Source: Victivallis vadensis (GTDB taxonomy: Bacteria > Verrucomicrobiota > Lentisphaeria > Victivallales > Victivallaceae). Taken from it: a stretch of DNA of 64,000 nt. Every line of letters starts with the position of its first letter. Position 1 is the stretch's first letter. A model generated the notes under the pieces. The model searched no databases. It was given only the letters and a program-made list of their open reading frames with translations, and was not told where the DNA came from. Below, in pieces: positions 5,915 to 62,080 of this stretch. The position numbers and the translations under genes are program-made. The stretch is taken from assembly GCF_003096415.1 (NCBI RefSeq), contig NZ_QEKH01000005.1:62001-126000 (forward strand), written 5' to 3'.

Positions 5915-6655
5915 TTAAAAACCGGCAGTTACCGCCCAATTGGCCGTCTTGTTTTCACCCAGCCAGCGGTGATCCACACTCAATGCGTTTCCGGCGGGCA
6001 TCAGCACATTGGCCCGGCGCATGCCGGAGTGGCGCAGATGAACCACCTTATTCGCCGGAGCCGTTTCCATCACCCCCCGTCCATCCGTCGGATGGGCCGC
6101 CGTATCCAGATACCAGATCTGCTCGTTTCCGGCTCCTCCCCCGGCGCGAACCGCATCGGCCAGCAGAATCATCCTCGCGTCAACCCGGCTGCGCGGAAAC
6201 CAGAAGAAATTCGCATTGATGGCCGATCCCACCGCATTGTCGCAATTATAACCGTTGGCCAGCCCGTAAACGCTTTTATAATTCCTGTAACGGAAAGGAG
6301 CGAAGCCCGGACAGAGCAGCGCCGAGCTGCCTCCGACTTTCGGTTCGGGAAGATATCCGGCTTTCACCATCACATAACTCCACGCCCCGCCGTCGTCATA
6401 GGCGCGCGCGCTCGGAAAAAAATCCCGGAAGTCGTTCGCATACATATTCAGCAGTGTGCCGAGCTGTTTTTGGTTGTTCAGGCAGGCAGTGCTCCGCGCC
6501 GAATCCCGCGCTTTGTTCAAAGCCGGAAGCAGCATCGCCGCCAGTATGGCGATAATCGCTATTACAACGAGCAGCTCAATCAATGTAAAATTATGATCCC
6601 TGCCGTCACGCCTGTTTCCACGCTGCATCTGTTTATTTTCTCTTACGTTATCCAT
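5915..6655 (-). CDS. pseudopilin-like protein, prepilin-type N-terminus
   Basis: 246 residues. Start at 6655 is supported by AAGGAGG five bases upstream. Residues 23-45 form a type IV prepilin-like segment ([19 protein letters not shown]) with Glu at +5, but Asn instead of Gly at -1, so it lacks the canonical prepilin peptidase glycine. The remainder is a globular domain with a short Asn/Gln-rich helix followed by Cys-containing strands. The C-terminal H-X9-DG motif of this group is degenerate here (HSG... then AG). It is the first gene of a two-gene operon with the GH-A glycosidase. Family members are expected at the cell envelope; whether this one serves type II secretion, a surface fibre, or substrate binding is unknown. 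Confidence 0.8.
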
Positions 6656-6742
6656 ATTCCCTCCTTGATAAACGGGTTGTCTGTTTCAAAAGCCATGTTT
6701 ACCTGCCGGCCTCATGCCGTCCGCTTTCCAATCGCACATGAC

Positions 6743-6756
6743 TGTATCATGATACA
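6743..6756. promoter_or_regulatory. perfect 14-bp palindrome, putative operator
   Basis: TGTATCATGATACA is a perfect inverted repeat 88 bp upstream of the pseudopilin start and has no counterpart in repeat copy B. It is a candidate site for the adjacent GntR/LacI-hybrid regulator, whose own promoter region carries a related imperfect TGT..ACA palindrome near 8511-8520. Assignment is inference. Confidence 0.45.
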
Positions 6757-7167
6757 TAAGTTTAATCTGCCTTTCCGTATCGTTACCGGTCACAAACTGG
6801 GTGCCAGTCGTTTGCGGATGGCTCCGGAGGGCCTTTTCAAGGCCTGCCCGCCTGCGGCGTGCACGATCGCCCGTCCGGACCTCCCCGCTCGCCTCGGAAC
6901 TCCCGTTGACTTGCGAAGCACTTCCATTCGCGGGCGGCCCTAGCGGGCCTTACTTGTCCGCCTGCGGCGGCCAACCCTTCATCGTTCGCTGCGCTCACTA
7001 CGCCGGAGGGGCTTCGCTCTCTACGTTCGGCTTCGTCACTATCGTTCCTCGTTACTTGCTGCCGCAAGTAATGCCCTCACATTCGTTCGCGGCGCTGACC
7101 GCGCTTGTTGTGCGCCGCGTAAATGGCGGCGTAGCCTTATTTATGCACTGCGTAAATGGCTTGGCTG

Positions 7168-7400
7168 ACCAACCAATGTCTGCCAGTACCAGCCGCCGCG
7201 CGACCCCGAAGGGCGTAGAGCGCGCACTCGGCGGCGGCACCTTGCCGCCCGCGCTTGTTGTGCGCCGCGTAAATGGTCATGGAGACCAACCAATGCCTGC
7301 CAGTACCAGCCGCCGCGCGACCCCGAAGGGGCATTGGCGGGCGCACCCGGCAGCGGCACCTTGCCGCCCGCGCTTATTGTGCGCCGCGTAAATCGCGAAC
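7168..7400. repeat. two tandem 117-bp units inside repeat copy A
   Basis: Units 7168-7284 and 7285-7400 share a 46-bp block with a single mismatch (7168-7213 versus 7285-7330) and a second block around 7231-7276 versus 7351-7395. Copy B at 47 kb has only one such unit, so this is a local duplication. Confidence 0.75.
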
Positions 7401-14698: not shown

Positions 14699-16042
14699 CC
14701 TGAGCGGCGGTTGATAGCCCTCGTCGCCGCCGAGCTTTTTCCAGCGGAAATAGATCCACAAGAGAAGCACGAAGCACGGGATCGTAAAAAGGAAATCCCA
14801 CACATAGAGCCAGCGGTAGCCGAAGAGATCGATGAACCAGCCGCCCGCCGCGTTGGCGGCGACCAGCAGCAGGGCCTTGACCATCGCCGCCGCCGAACAG
14901 AACTGGCCGAACTGCTCTTTCGGATACAGTTTCACGCACAGCGGCAGCAGCGAGGAGTTCTGCACCGTATAGACGACGGCGAGCAGGATTCCCATCGCCA
15001 TGAACGTGCCGTAGCCGTGCACGAAAAAGAATCCGAAGGGGTTCACGAAGATCACCAGCAGCGCCCCGGCCAGATAGATCCGCAGCGGATGGAACCGGTC
15101 CACGAGGTATCCCATCGGCAGATAGAGCGCGACGCCGACGATGCCGCCGACCGCGCCGACCCGGCCGAATTGCGCGGTGGTCAGCCCGAGGTCATTCAGC
15201 GCGAACAGCAGATTGAACATGTTGCGGCAGACCGTCGACACGTAATTGAACGCCAGCCCGACGAAAAGGATCGAAAAGAACGGCACCGAAAAACAGTCGC
15301 GGAAATAACCGGCCACCATCGCCTTCAGCCCCGGCTTCACCGGCGGAGGCGGCGGATACTCCCCCTCCTTCACGTTCAGGCACATCCCGGTGAAGCTCAA
15401 TACGTAGATCAGCGCGACCACCGTGAAGATGACCGACATGTGGGTTTTCGCATAGGGCATCACCAGCAGATTGAAGCACATGCCGCCCAATGTTCCGGCG
15501 ATCCGGAACAGCGACATGAAGCGGCCGATGAACTGCTGCGGCACCACGTCCGCGAAAATGTAGTAGAACACCGACCCGACAAACAAATCGAATCCCTGAT
15601 AGCAGATCACGAAAAACGCGATCAGGCAGATGGTGAACGTCGCGGGACTCCCGCCGTCCCCCCACAGCAGATTGTAAAAGAACGCGCCGATCTGATCGCT
15701 CCAGCCGAGCAGGATCAGAAAGAGCGCGGTAAAGGGAGGCGTGAACAGCAGATACGGAATCCGCCTGCCCCACCGGCTGCGGGTGCGGTCGCTGCGGGTG
15801 CTGACGATCGGGTTGATGATGAAATTCAACAGCGCGGGGATGCTGCCCATCAGGATTCCGATGGTCAGGTTGCTCGCATTGTGCATCTTCAGCAGCAGCG
15901 GCGTCAGCGACGGCGACACCGTCTCCATCATCGAGAAGCAGAAGTCCCCCCACAGCAGCCAGATGAAGAGATTCAGCAGCCCGAGGCGGGTGTAAGTCAG
16001 TGTCCCGCAGCGGTAGAGGACCTCGCCCCCCTCCTCTTTCAT
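14693..16042 (-). CDS. MFS sugar transporter (SLC45/GPH-like)
   Basis: 449 residues from ATG 16042, which overlaps the stop of the upstream oxidoreductase as ATGA, indicating translational coupling. Twelve membrane helices are apparent. The loop NPIVSTRSDRTRSRWGRRIPY (about 70-90) matches the family's helix 2-3 signature (D-R-x-x-x-R-W-G-R-R), and FADVVPQQFIGR precedes the central loop. Proteins of this type import sugars or glycosides with protons. It is the last gene of the leftward eight-gene sugar operon, and a close paralogue is encoded at 56740. Confidence 0.82.
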   Translation of the reverse strand: MKEEGGEVLYRCGTLTYTRLGLLNLFIWLLWGDFCFSMMETVSPSLTPLLLKMHNASNLTIGILMGSIPALLNFIINPIVSTRSDRTRSRWGRRIPYLLFTPPFTALFLILLGWSDQIGAFFYNLLWGDGGSPATFTICLIAFFVICYQGFDLFVGSVFYYIFADVVPQQFIGRFMSLFRIAGTLGGMCFNLLVMPYAKTHMSVIFTVVALIYVLSFTGMCLNVKEGEYPPPPPVKPGLKAMVAGYFRDCFSVPFFSILFVGLAFNYVSTVCRNMFNLLFALNDLGLTTAQFGRVGAVGGIVGVALYLPMGYLVDRFHPLRIYLAGALLVIFVNPFGFFFVHGYGTFMAMGILLAVVYTVQNSSLLPLCVKLYPKEQFGQFCSAAAMVKALLLVAANAAGGWFIDLFGYRWLYVWDFLFTIPCFVLLLWIYFRWKKLGGDEGYQPPLRP

Positions 16043-46047: not shown

Positions 46048-46785
46048 TCAGTATTTGGAGAGGTCGGAGCCGTCCGGATTCCAGCTGATCCGGTGCTGCA
46101 GGCCGTCGGAGGGATATTTGCCGTACAGCGCGGAAACGTGGCCGTCGGCCAGCAGCATCCCCATCCCGTCCGGGTGCGGAAAACGGGCTGAATTCCACGC
46201 CCCGTCCCACTCGCCGGTCCACTTGGTGATCGAAAAATACAGTCCTTCGCCAGCCAGCAGGATTCTCGACGCATGACGGATGCCCGGGAATTTCACGGCG
46301 GGCTGTTCGTTCCCGAGAAAATTGTTCTGTGCGATGCCGCCGCAGCCGGCCAGTTTGCGGGTCTGCTCAAGGCTGTTGTCCAGCGTCGGGCCGGGGACGT
46401 ATTCGGAGCAGACCGGCACCGAATAGCGGTTCTTCTCCACTTCAGGATTGTCCGGCGTGAAATCCCCCTTGTTGTACCGCTCCAGAAAGAGCTGGGACGC
46501 ATAGGGTCCAAGGCTCGTCTCCCAATCCTGCCTGCCCCCCGAAGCATAAGTCTGACGGGTCGGCACCACGAAATCCTGATGGTCGGCCGCATAAAGCTGA
46601 TGGGCGATGCCGAGTTGTTTCATCTTGTTCTTACACTGCGTCCCCCGCGCGGAAGCCCGCGCCCGGTTCAACGCCGGCAGCAGCATACTCGCCAGAATCG
46701 CGATGATCGCTATCACCACGAGCAGCTCAATCAGCGTAAAATTCCGGCGGTGCTTCCCGTACCATACGTTCTTTCCGTACCGCAT
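46048..46785 (-). CDS. pseudopilin-like protein
   Basis: 245 residues from ATG 46785, with AAAGGA upstream; an upstream in-frame ATG at 46830 lacks such a site. The leader [15 protein letters not shown] precedes [19 protein letters not shown], so Asn occupies the -1 position. The body has the [16 protein letters not shown] helix and ends with [12 protein letters not shown], an exact H-X9-DG. It is the first gene of an operon with the GntR regulator and the GH2-like glycosidase. The structured repeat B lies about 110 bp upstream. Confidence 0.8.
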
Positions 46786-46896
46786 TTGCCCATCCTTTCC
46801 TGAATTGTACATGGTTTCTCTCCAATCCAATGCCGTCCGACGTCAACCTTGGAGTGCGGAGCCCGAAGGGGCGGCGAAGCCGACTTCAGCTCCGCT

Positions 46897-47370
46897 TTCC
46901 AATCGCACGTGACCATACAGTCACTCATACGTTTCGTTACCTTTCCATACCATTGCAGGCCACAAACTAAATGCCGGTCATTTGCGGATGGCTCCGGAGG
47001 GCCCGGTTGCGCCCTCCGGACCTCCCCGTCCGAATTTGGACTCACGCGAACTTTCAGAGCACTTCCGCTCGCGGGCGCGGCTTTGCCGCTTACTTGTCGG
47101 GCTGCGCCCGCCAACCCTTCAACGTTCGCTACGCTCACTACGCCAGGGAGGCTTCGCTCTCTACGTTCGGCTTCGTCACTATCGTTCCTCGTTATTTTGC
47201 TGCCGCAAAATAATTCCCTCACATTCGTTCGCGGCGCTGACCGCGCTTGTTGTGCGCCGCATAAAAGGTTTTGGAGACCAACCTTCGCCTTGCCTGTGCT
47301 GGACGCCGCACGCCCCCCGGAGGGGCATTGGCGGGCGCACCCGGCAGCGGCACCTTGCCGCCGGCAGCGA
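46897..47370. repeat. structured noncoding repeat, copy B (upstream of a pseudopilin gene)
   Basis: Homologous to 6725-7400 and in the same orientation relative to the adjacent pseudopilin gene. Its hairpins are TCCGGAGGGC/GCCCTCCGGA (46993-47020), GCGGC/GCCGC (47077-47089), CGGGC/GCCCG (47098-47110), TTATTTTGC/GCAAAATAA (47192-47213) and GCGGCGC/GCGCCGC (about 47231-47260). Loops and linkers match copy A while stems differ with pairing kept. The rest of the gap 46786-47536 holds only pseudopilin leader DNA on one side and, on the other, AT-rich DNA and the terminator; I see no gene. Confidence 0.8.
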
Positions 47371-47477
47371 TTGCTATATTACAGATATATTACAGTTTAT
47401 ATTATGACAAAGAAAACCGCAAATGTCAAGATGCCGGGAAAAAATTTTCCGAATTTTCCGAATTCTCCGAATCAGCA

Positions 47478-47505
47478 AAGAAAAAGCCGGGGCCAATGCC
47501 CCGGC
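47478..47505 (-). terminator. intrinsic terminator of the 55-47 kb operon
   Basis: On the minus strand GCCGGGGC, loop ATTG, GCCCCGGC (47486-47505) forms an 8-bp perfect GC stem directly followed by TTTTTCTTT. It lies about 30 bp after the last gene of the leftward operon, a textbook rho-independent terminator. Confidence 0.85.
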
Positions 47506-56739: not shown

Positions 56740-58113
56740 ATGAGCAGCGGCGGAACGATCGTGGAAAACGGCCGGACCTATTATACGGTCGGAACGTTGA
56801 AGTATTCTCTGTTCGGGCTGGTTAATCTTTTCATCTGGATGCTGTGGGGGGATTTCTGCTTCACGCTGATGGAGATGCTGATCCCGTCGCTGCTGCCGCT
56901 GTTCCTGAACAACCATGACGCCCCGAACTGGCTGATCGGCCTGGTGGTCGGCAGCATTCCCGCCGCGCTGAATTTCGTGATCAATCCGATCGTCAGCACC
57001 CGCAGCGACCGAACCCGCACCCGCTGGGGCCGCCGCATCCCCTATTTGCTGTTCGCGAGTCCCTTCGTGACGCTGTTCCTGATCCTGCTCGGCTGGAGCG
57101 ACGCGATCGGCACTTTCCTGCAGCGGACGGTATTCGGCGGCAACGTGTCGGCGGCGGCGGTGACCATCGGCTGCATCATCGTATTCGCGGTCGGCTTCCA
57201 ATGCTTCAACATGTTCGTGGCCTCGATCTTCTACTACATCTTCGCGGACGTGGTGCCCAAACAGTTCATGGGGCGCTTCATGGCGCTGTTCCGCATGGTC
57301 GGCACCGTCGCCGGCTTCATCTTCAACGGCTACATCATCAAGCACGCCGACCTTCACATGCCCTGGATCTTCACCGTCGTGGCGCTGATCTACCTGACCG
57401 CCTTCGGCCTGATGTGCCTGCTGGTCAAGGAGGGACAGTACCCGCCGCCGGAACCGCCGAAAGGCAATCCGGTCAAAACCTACTTCCGGGAGTGCTTCAG
57501 CCTGAGCTTCTACCGCTGGTTCTTCCTCGCGATGGCCTGCAACGACGCCTCGACCGTCTGCCGCACCATGTTCAATCTGCTCTTTTCCAAAAACGAACTC
57601 GGGCTCTCTCTGGAACAATACGGCAACATCATGAGCGTCAACGCGGTGATCTCCTTCTTTCTGCTGATCCCGATGGGCTTCCTGGTGGACTGGCTCCATC
57701 CGCTGCGGACCTATATCGCCGGCGCAATGCTGGTGATCGCCGCCAATCTCTTCGGCTTCTTCTTCGTGCAGGATTACATCACGTTTTTCATCGTCGCAAT
57801 CCTGATCGCAATCGTATATGTGATCCAGAATGCCAGCAAACTGCCGATGTTCGTGTCGCTGCTGCCGGCCGCCAGCTACGGCCAGTTTTCCTCGGCCAAC
57901 GCGATGGTGGTCTCGGTATTCCTGATCTTCGCGAACTTCGGCGGCGGGGTCTTCATCGACTTTCTGGGCTACCGGTACATCTTCATCTGGGACCTGCTGT
58001 TCACCACGCTCGGGCTGATCGCGCTGCTCAAGGTCTACCGCTACTGGAGCCGCAGCGGCGGCCGCCGGGGCTACGTCGCCCCGACGGTGCAGAACCGTCC
58101 GGCCGTTGACTGA
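56740..58113 (+). CDS. MFS sugar transporter (SLC45/GPH-like)
   Basis: 457 residues, about twelve membrane helices, closely similar to the protein at 14693 throughout: NLFIWMLWGDFCFTLMEM near the start, NPIVSTRSDRTRTRWGRRIPY in the helix 2-3 loop, and FADVVPKQFMGRFMALFR before the centre. It is expected to import the product of the secreted enzymes encoded in the divergent operon. Expression is tied to that operon through the shared 13-bp operator. Exact sugar unknown. Confidence 0.84.
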   Translation: MSSGGTIVENGRTYYTVGTLKYSLFGLVNLFIWMLWGDFCFTLMEMLIPSLLPLFLNNHDAPNWLIGLVVGSIPAALNFVINPIVSTRSDRTRTRWGRRIPYLLFASPFVTLFLILLGWSDAIGTFLQRTVFGGNVSAAAVTIGCIIVFAVGFQCFNMFVASIFYYIFADVVPKQFMGRFMALFRMVGTVAGFIFNGYIIKHADLHMPWIFTVVALIYLTAFGLMCLLVKEGQYPPPEPPKGNPVKTYFRECFSLSFYRWFFLAMACNDASTVCRTMFNLLFSKNELGLSLEQYGNIMSVNAVISFFLLIPMGFLVDWLHPLRTYIAGAMLVIAANLFGFFFVQDYITFFIVAILIAIVYVIQNASKLPMFVSLLPAASYGQFSSANAMVVSVFLIFANFGGGVFIDFLGYRYIFIWDLLFTTLGLIALLKVYRYWSRSGGRRGYVAPTVQNRPAVD

Positions 58114-61393: not shown

Positions 61394-62080
61394 ATGAAAC
61401 GAAATTTCACATTGATTGAGCTGCTCGTCGTTGTAGCGATCATCGCGATTCTGGCGGCGTTGCTGCTGCCTGCGCTGAACAGCGCGCGGGAAAAAGTGAT
61501 CATGACCAAATGCAAGAACAACCTCAAGCAGATCGCGGTCGGCATCCACGCCTACGGCGGCGACAACGGCGAATACATGCCGAATTCTCCACTGAGCGCG
61601 ACGCCTCCCAACAGCCGCTACACCCACCGCGGCAACTCCGGCAACAAGAAATCCTACACCAACCTGGGGCTGCTGATCGAGGGCTACCTGAATGAAGCCG
61701 TGCTCTACTGTCCCGCCCAGAAAATCCGCACCTATGATTCCGTGAAAAACCTGCCGCGCACCTCCAACCGCATCGCAGGATACGACAGCCTGCCGGTATG
61801 GGCCAATTCAAAATGGAACTTTCGGCCCCGCATCGGCTTCATGCAGAAGGAAAAGCTGGCGATGGTGTACGATATCGCGACCGACAGCAAACTTTACAGC
61901 ATGCCGCACGGCCTGCAGTGGAATGTCGCCTTTGCCGACGGCCACATCGCCGTCTACCGGAACGGTTCGAGTTCGATCGGCGGCGGCGCCACGCTTGCCG
62001 GCATGATCGCGGAAGGAAAGAACACCTCGTTTCCCAACGCGACGACCATCCTGAAACGCCTCTCGACCTGCGGTTACTGA
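61394..62080 (+). CDS. pseudopilin-like protein
   Basis: 228 residues; AAAGGAG precedes the ATG. The minimal leader MKRN is followed by [19 protein letters not shown], again with Asn at -1 and Glu at +5. The body contains [20 protein letters not shown] and ends with [12 protein letters not shown], an exact H-X9-DG. It lies 10 bp after the LacI gene and 17 bp before the GH gene, the tightest example of the regulator-pseudopilin-hydrolase cassette in the window. Confidence 0.82.

Follow-up and report, generated by a model that had tools for sequence, protein, structure and literature searches.

The window, a stretch of 64,000 nucleotides from the genome of Victivallis vadensis (positions 62,001 to 126,000 of contig NZ_QEKH01000005.1), raises the question why one and the same repeat lies directly upstream of two separate pseudopilin genes. 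The answer that we favor, with a probability of roughly two in three, is that the repeat is a structured 5′-leader RNA module of pseudopilin mRNAs, which in sister copies is carried as cargo by an invertible ON/OFF switch of the Xer type.

The first copy (repeat B; 46891..47373, minus strand) has 73 blastn matches in its own genome and precedes a pseudopilin gene of the DUF1559 type (46048..46812, minus strand; PF07596 and PF07963 above cut-off). The sister copy (6720..7370, minus strand), which carries extra tandem 5′ units (direct repeats D5, D7, D10, and D12-D15), precedes a pseudopilin gene at 5915..6655 (minus strand), whose product scores above cut-off for PF07596 and TIGR02532 and just below the Pfam cut-off for PF07963 (N_methyl). 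The two copies share aligned blocks of 74–93% identity, and both downstream proteins combine a prepilin N-terminal motif with DUF1559, which bears out the initial annotation that the element occurs twice in the same orientation and each time 5′ of a pseudopilin gene. Of the pilin starts proposed there, 6655 is retained, whereas 46785 is most plausibly replaced by the ATG at 46812 because the latter is preceded by a well-spaced GGAG. The gap between the element and the best start codon is therefore 79 nt for repeat B; it is 65 nt for the sister copy. A predicted sigma-70 promoter (47401..47429, minus strand; TTGACA-17-CATAAT, which fits the consensus at 11 of 12 positions and has a TG ahead of its −10 box) is located between repeat B and the predicted intrinsic terminator of the upstream gene (47486..47505, minus strand; a G+C stem of 8 pairs followed by TTTTTCTTTG), so that repeat B would be transcribed in its entirety as part of a leader of about 600 nt. 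The sister copy, for which no promoter is predicted, lies directly 3′ of a regulator-like gene. The window also contains long inverted repeats (14933-16007 and 56790-57855; 72–76% complementary), which are probably paralogous genes.

Read toward the pilin, the core of the repeat is a structured RNA of 176 nt that includes a pseudoknot. It comprises the helices H1, H2, H3 (the pseudoknot), H4, and H5 and is recognized by covariance model R1 both in repeat B (47073..47248, minus strand; 213.7 bits over positions 1-176) and in the sister copy (6932..7106, minus strand; 192.2 bits). The linkers are constant, and the arms of the hairpins vary with pairing kept. When 30 sequences were aligned with MAFFT, 94% of the cells paired, and double changes occurred at 16 pairs and in 102 cells (35.5 in shuffled alignments). 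An alignment across three genera, which was fitted to the covariance model and is therefore biased toward it, has double changes at 28 of 37 pairs and a covariation score of 0.487, compared to 0.137 when shuffled and at most 0.085 when slid. In the pseudoknot, the loop of the GCC[..]GGC hairpin forms base pairs with a strand further downstream (CTCC/GGAG, CCCT/AGGG, CTCT/AGAG, or TCC/GGA), and the two sides vary in concert, paired insertions included. In one hairpin, an apparent tandem G.A motif (UGAGC..GCGAA) replaces Watson-Crick pairs. Covariation in these alignments shows the core on the pilin-sense strand to be a conserved pseudoknotted RNA. The pilin-sense strand is also the one most likely to be the RNA, because its G-U cells outnumber its A-C cells by 18 to 5.

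The suggestion in the initial annotation of a long structured 5′ leader is thus backed by covariation, by the strand bias of G-U pairs, and by the predicted promoter upstream of repeat B. Its comparison with a riboswitch fared less well, as there is neither a link to any known riboswitch nor a hint of a ligand, and some 30 copies are not followed by pilins. A search of the whole window against Rfam yielded no match at the gathering score and, at permissive thresholds, nothing beyond weak and implausible ones; by its predicted fold, the RNA is a new class of folded leader outside Rfam. Like the riboswitches and leaders in Rfam, it precedes a coding region and is a conserved RNA of several helices that include a pseudoknot; unlike these, it is present in many copies and is tied to one gene family yet also found away from this family.

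Pattern searches of the host genome (5.2 Mb in 87 contigs) with a 33-nt core sequence detected 52 copies, 31 of them without mismatch, and none with the reversed control pattern. The same core was not found at up to three mismatches in 60 relatives, and phage and plasmid records contained no match to the element. Identity of whole copies to repeat B is only about 74–92%, and their layout is modular: tandem 5′ units in variable number, an invariant core, and a 3′ half of two types. A pilin gene follows in the sense of the core in 19 of the 52 copies (expected 0.5–0.9; P < 1e-19), at a distance of 230–750 nt from the core; the genome has at least 150 matches to the prepilin motif. About 30 copies are located elsewhere and have neighbors other than pilin genes; the crude calls of open reading frames made around them play no part in the argument. 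Random placement of further copies, which had been named as an argument against the link to pilins, is thus half borne out, by these copies. One degraded copy (contig C3, about 199.5 kb; L135 2990-3075) is located some 100 nt ahead of a CRISPR array, counted to its first repeat (GTTTCTAATCCACTACGGTTGGAGGGG); its interpretation as a CRISPR spacer was rejected in favor of a degraded element beside the array.

The covariance models match in six of the nine genomes from the host's genus, five genomes of genus g17, and two of genus g18, with a few weak hits elsewhere. The single RNA copies in the congeners G003 and G002 come after tandem repeats of GC-rich units, and that of G003 (C13:36700-40000) is located upstream of a transaldolase-like gene instead of a pilin. 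In G006 (C1, about 1.6 kb), a pilin-like gene on the opposite strand has the RNA next to its N-terminal coding region and seems to be interrupted by it there. All inspected copies of genus g17 are situated away from pilin starts, several of them flanked by palindromes (TTGCAAAA..TTTTGCAA), whereas two of three inspected copies of genus g18 precede pilins.

The boundaries of the pilin-linked copies point to site-specific recombination. In congener G005, the RNA lies within segments of 471 bp with perfect inverted ends (CGCATAATACCGGGTATGTGA), and the ends in G005 and the host genome share the consensus CGCATAAT-N5-GTATGTKA. We regard them as dif-like sites with outward XerC-like arms because they are nearly identical to a dif-like sequence of the relatives, CGCATAATGTATNTTATGTTA, which occurs exactly once in each of the 29 genomes (among 61) in which it was found. 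With arms assigned on the basis of the well-known dif site of E. coli and a table of pdif sites (PMC13141974), the XerC-like arm is outside and the XerD-like arm inside at both ends of the segment. A search for inverted pairs by the site alone, which made no use of the pilins, recovered 28 pairs; 27 of these have a pilin start at one end only, in most cases with the reading frame running through the site (...HIPGIMRKPFTLIELL...). The centers at the two ends are identical in 25 of the 28 pairs (3.9 by shuffling) and, with the commonest center removed, in 16 of 19 pairs (1.0 by shuffling); they differ among copies but match within a copy. The segments thus have the makeup of a dif module: two inversely oriented sites, each with an XerC and an XerD half-site on either side of a 6-bp center, and identical centers. 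Judged by these assemblies, intact copies linked to pilins are enclosed by inverted pairs of dif-like sites with equal centers, and the inner segment points in either direction. No such ends are present at the copies away from pilins. Shorter segments without RNA (117–311 bp) have the same sites and pilins and likewise occur in both orientations, which suggests that the RNA is cargo rather than the switch itself. A scan of a collection of genome contigs, which possibly does not include the host genome and its near kin, did not find the junction of pilin and site.

Among the RNA-bearing pairs, the inner segment is in the ON orientation in eight and in the OFF orientation in seven across loci, and the flanks beyond the sites are alike in kind whichever way the inside points. 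In ON copies of G005, a Shine-Dalgarno sequence and an ATG face the pilin and lead in frame through the site into the leader peptide of the pilin. In the OFF copies, the start signals point away, and an intrinsic terminator (a GCGCGG..CCGCGC stem and a T-run) faces the pilin; this terminator is readily recognized in G005, whereas its counterparts in the host genome are weak or distant. An identical flank of 73 nt is present beyond both ends of one copy on contig C8, and contig C45 starts with the same 161 nt of the 3′ end of this copy, joined to a pilin. These junctions can be explained by both isomers having been sequenced or, alternatively, by misassembly. The orientation of the segment is predicted to change the expression of the pilin. 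No promoter was recognized within the segments. A promoter with the XerC-like arm of the distal site as its −10 box is attractive in a few copies (c19 and the decayed site of repeat B) but was rejected because 102 of 2000 shuffles were as good over all distal sites.

The host genome encodes an XerD above the curated cut-off, whose closest relative among the named records searched is from a Victivallaceae MAG (62% identity), and an XerC-like protein slightly below the curated cut-off for XerC. Most simply, the segments would be inverted by the XerC/XerD of the host, although another tyrosine recombinase could act on them, because 13 genes with a PF00589 domain are present. We propose that such a recombinase flips each segment within its own pair of sites and that these ON/OFF flips cause phase variation of individual pilins. 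The mature pilin would remain unchanged, because the residues added by the segment fall in the prepilin leader, which is normally cut off by prepilin peptidase.

Switching by inversion has precedents. In fimS and other invertible promoters, a tyrosine recombinase inverts a segment before a pilus gene and thereby turns it ON or OFF; here, it is the translation start and the terminator that change direction, not the promoter. In the case of cwpV of Clostridioides difficile, a phase switch operated by RecV, the invertible segment lies between promoter and gene and is bounded by imperfect inverted repeats of about 21 bp; an intrinsic terminator has been proposed for the OFF transcript, and the tyrosine recombinase, a member of the XerC/XerD family, is encoded elsewhere (PMC2784873). 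The putative switches described here would share with cwpV the inversion of a leader, the terminator in the OFF state, and a recombinase of the XerC/XerD family. By contrast, cwpV is a single locus whose segment contains no part of the open reading frame, whereas here the segments occupy many loci, bear the start codon and leader codons, often include a conserved RNA as cargo, and end in sites that resemble chromosomal dif. Inverse pairs of dif-like sites, with XerC and XerD half-sites around a variable 6-bp center, also delimit the dif (pdif) modules of Acinetobacter plasmids, where inversion has been seen between sites with identical centers (PMC13141974). The layout with the XerD arms inside corresponds to the D module of Acinetobacter. 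However, the Acinetobacter modules bear genes and are located mainly on plasmids, between which they move, whereas the segments described here are part of the chromosome, contain no genes, and are fixed at pilin starts. By analogy, the closest mechanistic counterpart would be a cwpV switch combined with the site logic of the Acinetobacter dif modules.

The same resemblance invites the reading that the segments are Xer-dependent mobile modules (dif modules or IMEX-like elements), whose cargo is moved between dif-like sites by the host XerCD, with inversion as a by-product. Apart from the paired inverse sites with matching 6-bp centers known from Acinetobacter (PMC13141974), this would explain the truncated pilin starts found beyond the distal site in G005, an arrangement that resembles insertion of the segment into pilin genes. 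It nevertheless seems unlikely, because the segments contain no gene, each is tied to a single pilin start, usually in frame, and exchanged modules were not seen in the genomes examined. In most G005 copies (L254, L256, L260-L265, and L268), a conserved AATATGTCACAATATAACTGTAATT is located outside the distal site behind the truncated pilin start (M..FTLIELLV), with which it forms a short open reading frame that ends inside the site.

The initial annotation had also considered a mobile element that targets pilin promoters. The element is indeed multicopy, restricted to few genera, and bounded by sites at pilin starts, and no transposase was seen within it, but it is not exclusive to pilins. In a dispersed MITE-like repeat that is moved in trans and often arrives at pilin starts, the segments would end in ordinary transposon terminal inverted repeats, and independent insertions would account for the two orientations. 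Such an origin is compatible with 52 copies in one genome of a sequence that is nearly absent from relatives, with shorter derivatives that share the same ends, with the roughly 30 copies away from pilins, and with the lack of a recombinase gene inside. We nevertheless consider it rather improbable: the ends fit dif in both arms and differ mainly in the center, the centers vary between copies but agree within a copy, unlike the fixed ends of a transposon, the flanks outside the sites are the same whichever the inner orientation, and the copies away from pilins have no dif-like ends. With regard to a target-site duplication, which a transposon would leave outside its ends, no short direct repeat was seen by eye beyond the sites, and in G005 about 24 bp of N-terminal coding sequence of the pilin are present on both sides of the segment in diverged form. 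At the pilin loci, inversion between inverted dif-like sites is better supported than the transposition implied by a mobile element.

A plain cis-regulatory leader (riboswitch or attenuator-like), either duplicated with the pilins or spread by recombination between nearly identical 5′ coding regions of pilins, with sites and flips incidental, would suit the pseudoknotted RNA on the pilin-sense strand, the predicted promoter of repeat B, the pilin-linked copies of genus g18, and the absence of sites from the window copies but is very unlikely given the many copies far from pilins, the RNA-less segments that lie both ways at the same sites and pilins, and a near half-and-half distribution of orientations that is not expected for a leader transcribed in one sense.

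The invertible switch with RNA cargo, which remains our preferred reading, leaves a special place for the two copies in the window. Inverted repeats as in cwpV bound all 28 site pairs, but no recognizable dif-like sites were found at either window copy. All 15 pilin-linked copies of the host genome that lack an intact pair of sites are ON, whereas intact pairs in both genomes comprise 10 ON and 14 OFF (P=1.4e-4; the latter tally, made partly by hand, counts segments without RNA as well as one copy of which a single side was seen). Accordingly placed among the former, the window copies look like switches that lost their sites and stayed ON; because the sites are absent, their origin from switches rests on homology to the other copies. 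Their RNA would persist as a long leader and may tune expression.

More tentatively, a single genome might carry many separately addressed Xer-type switches, each with a private center of 5-6 nt and flipped by XerCD, with the new pseudoknotted RNA controlling either the ON transcript or the inversion. The center shared by the two sites of a locus would then allow XerCD to flip single loci without rearranging the chromosome. If this is true, the machinery of Xer/dif chromosome resolution has become an on/off panel that spans multiple loci of a very large pilin family, with the matching center serving as the address of each switch, and bacteria of the Victivallaceae type possess a means to vary their pilin-like proteins; moreover, three genera of one family share a class of structured RNA whose role is directly testable. 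Searches of the open-access literature turned up no description of such switches for Victivallis or the Lentisphaerae. The two-site segments of 117-118 bp without RNA (L271, L278, and L284), each of which is located at a pilin start, possibly represent the minimal form of the switch.
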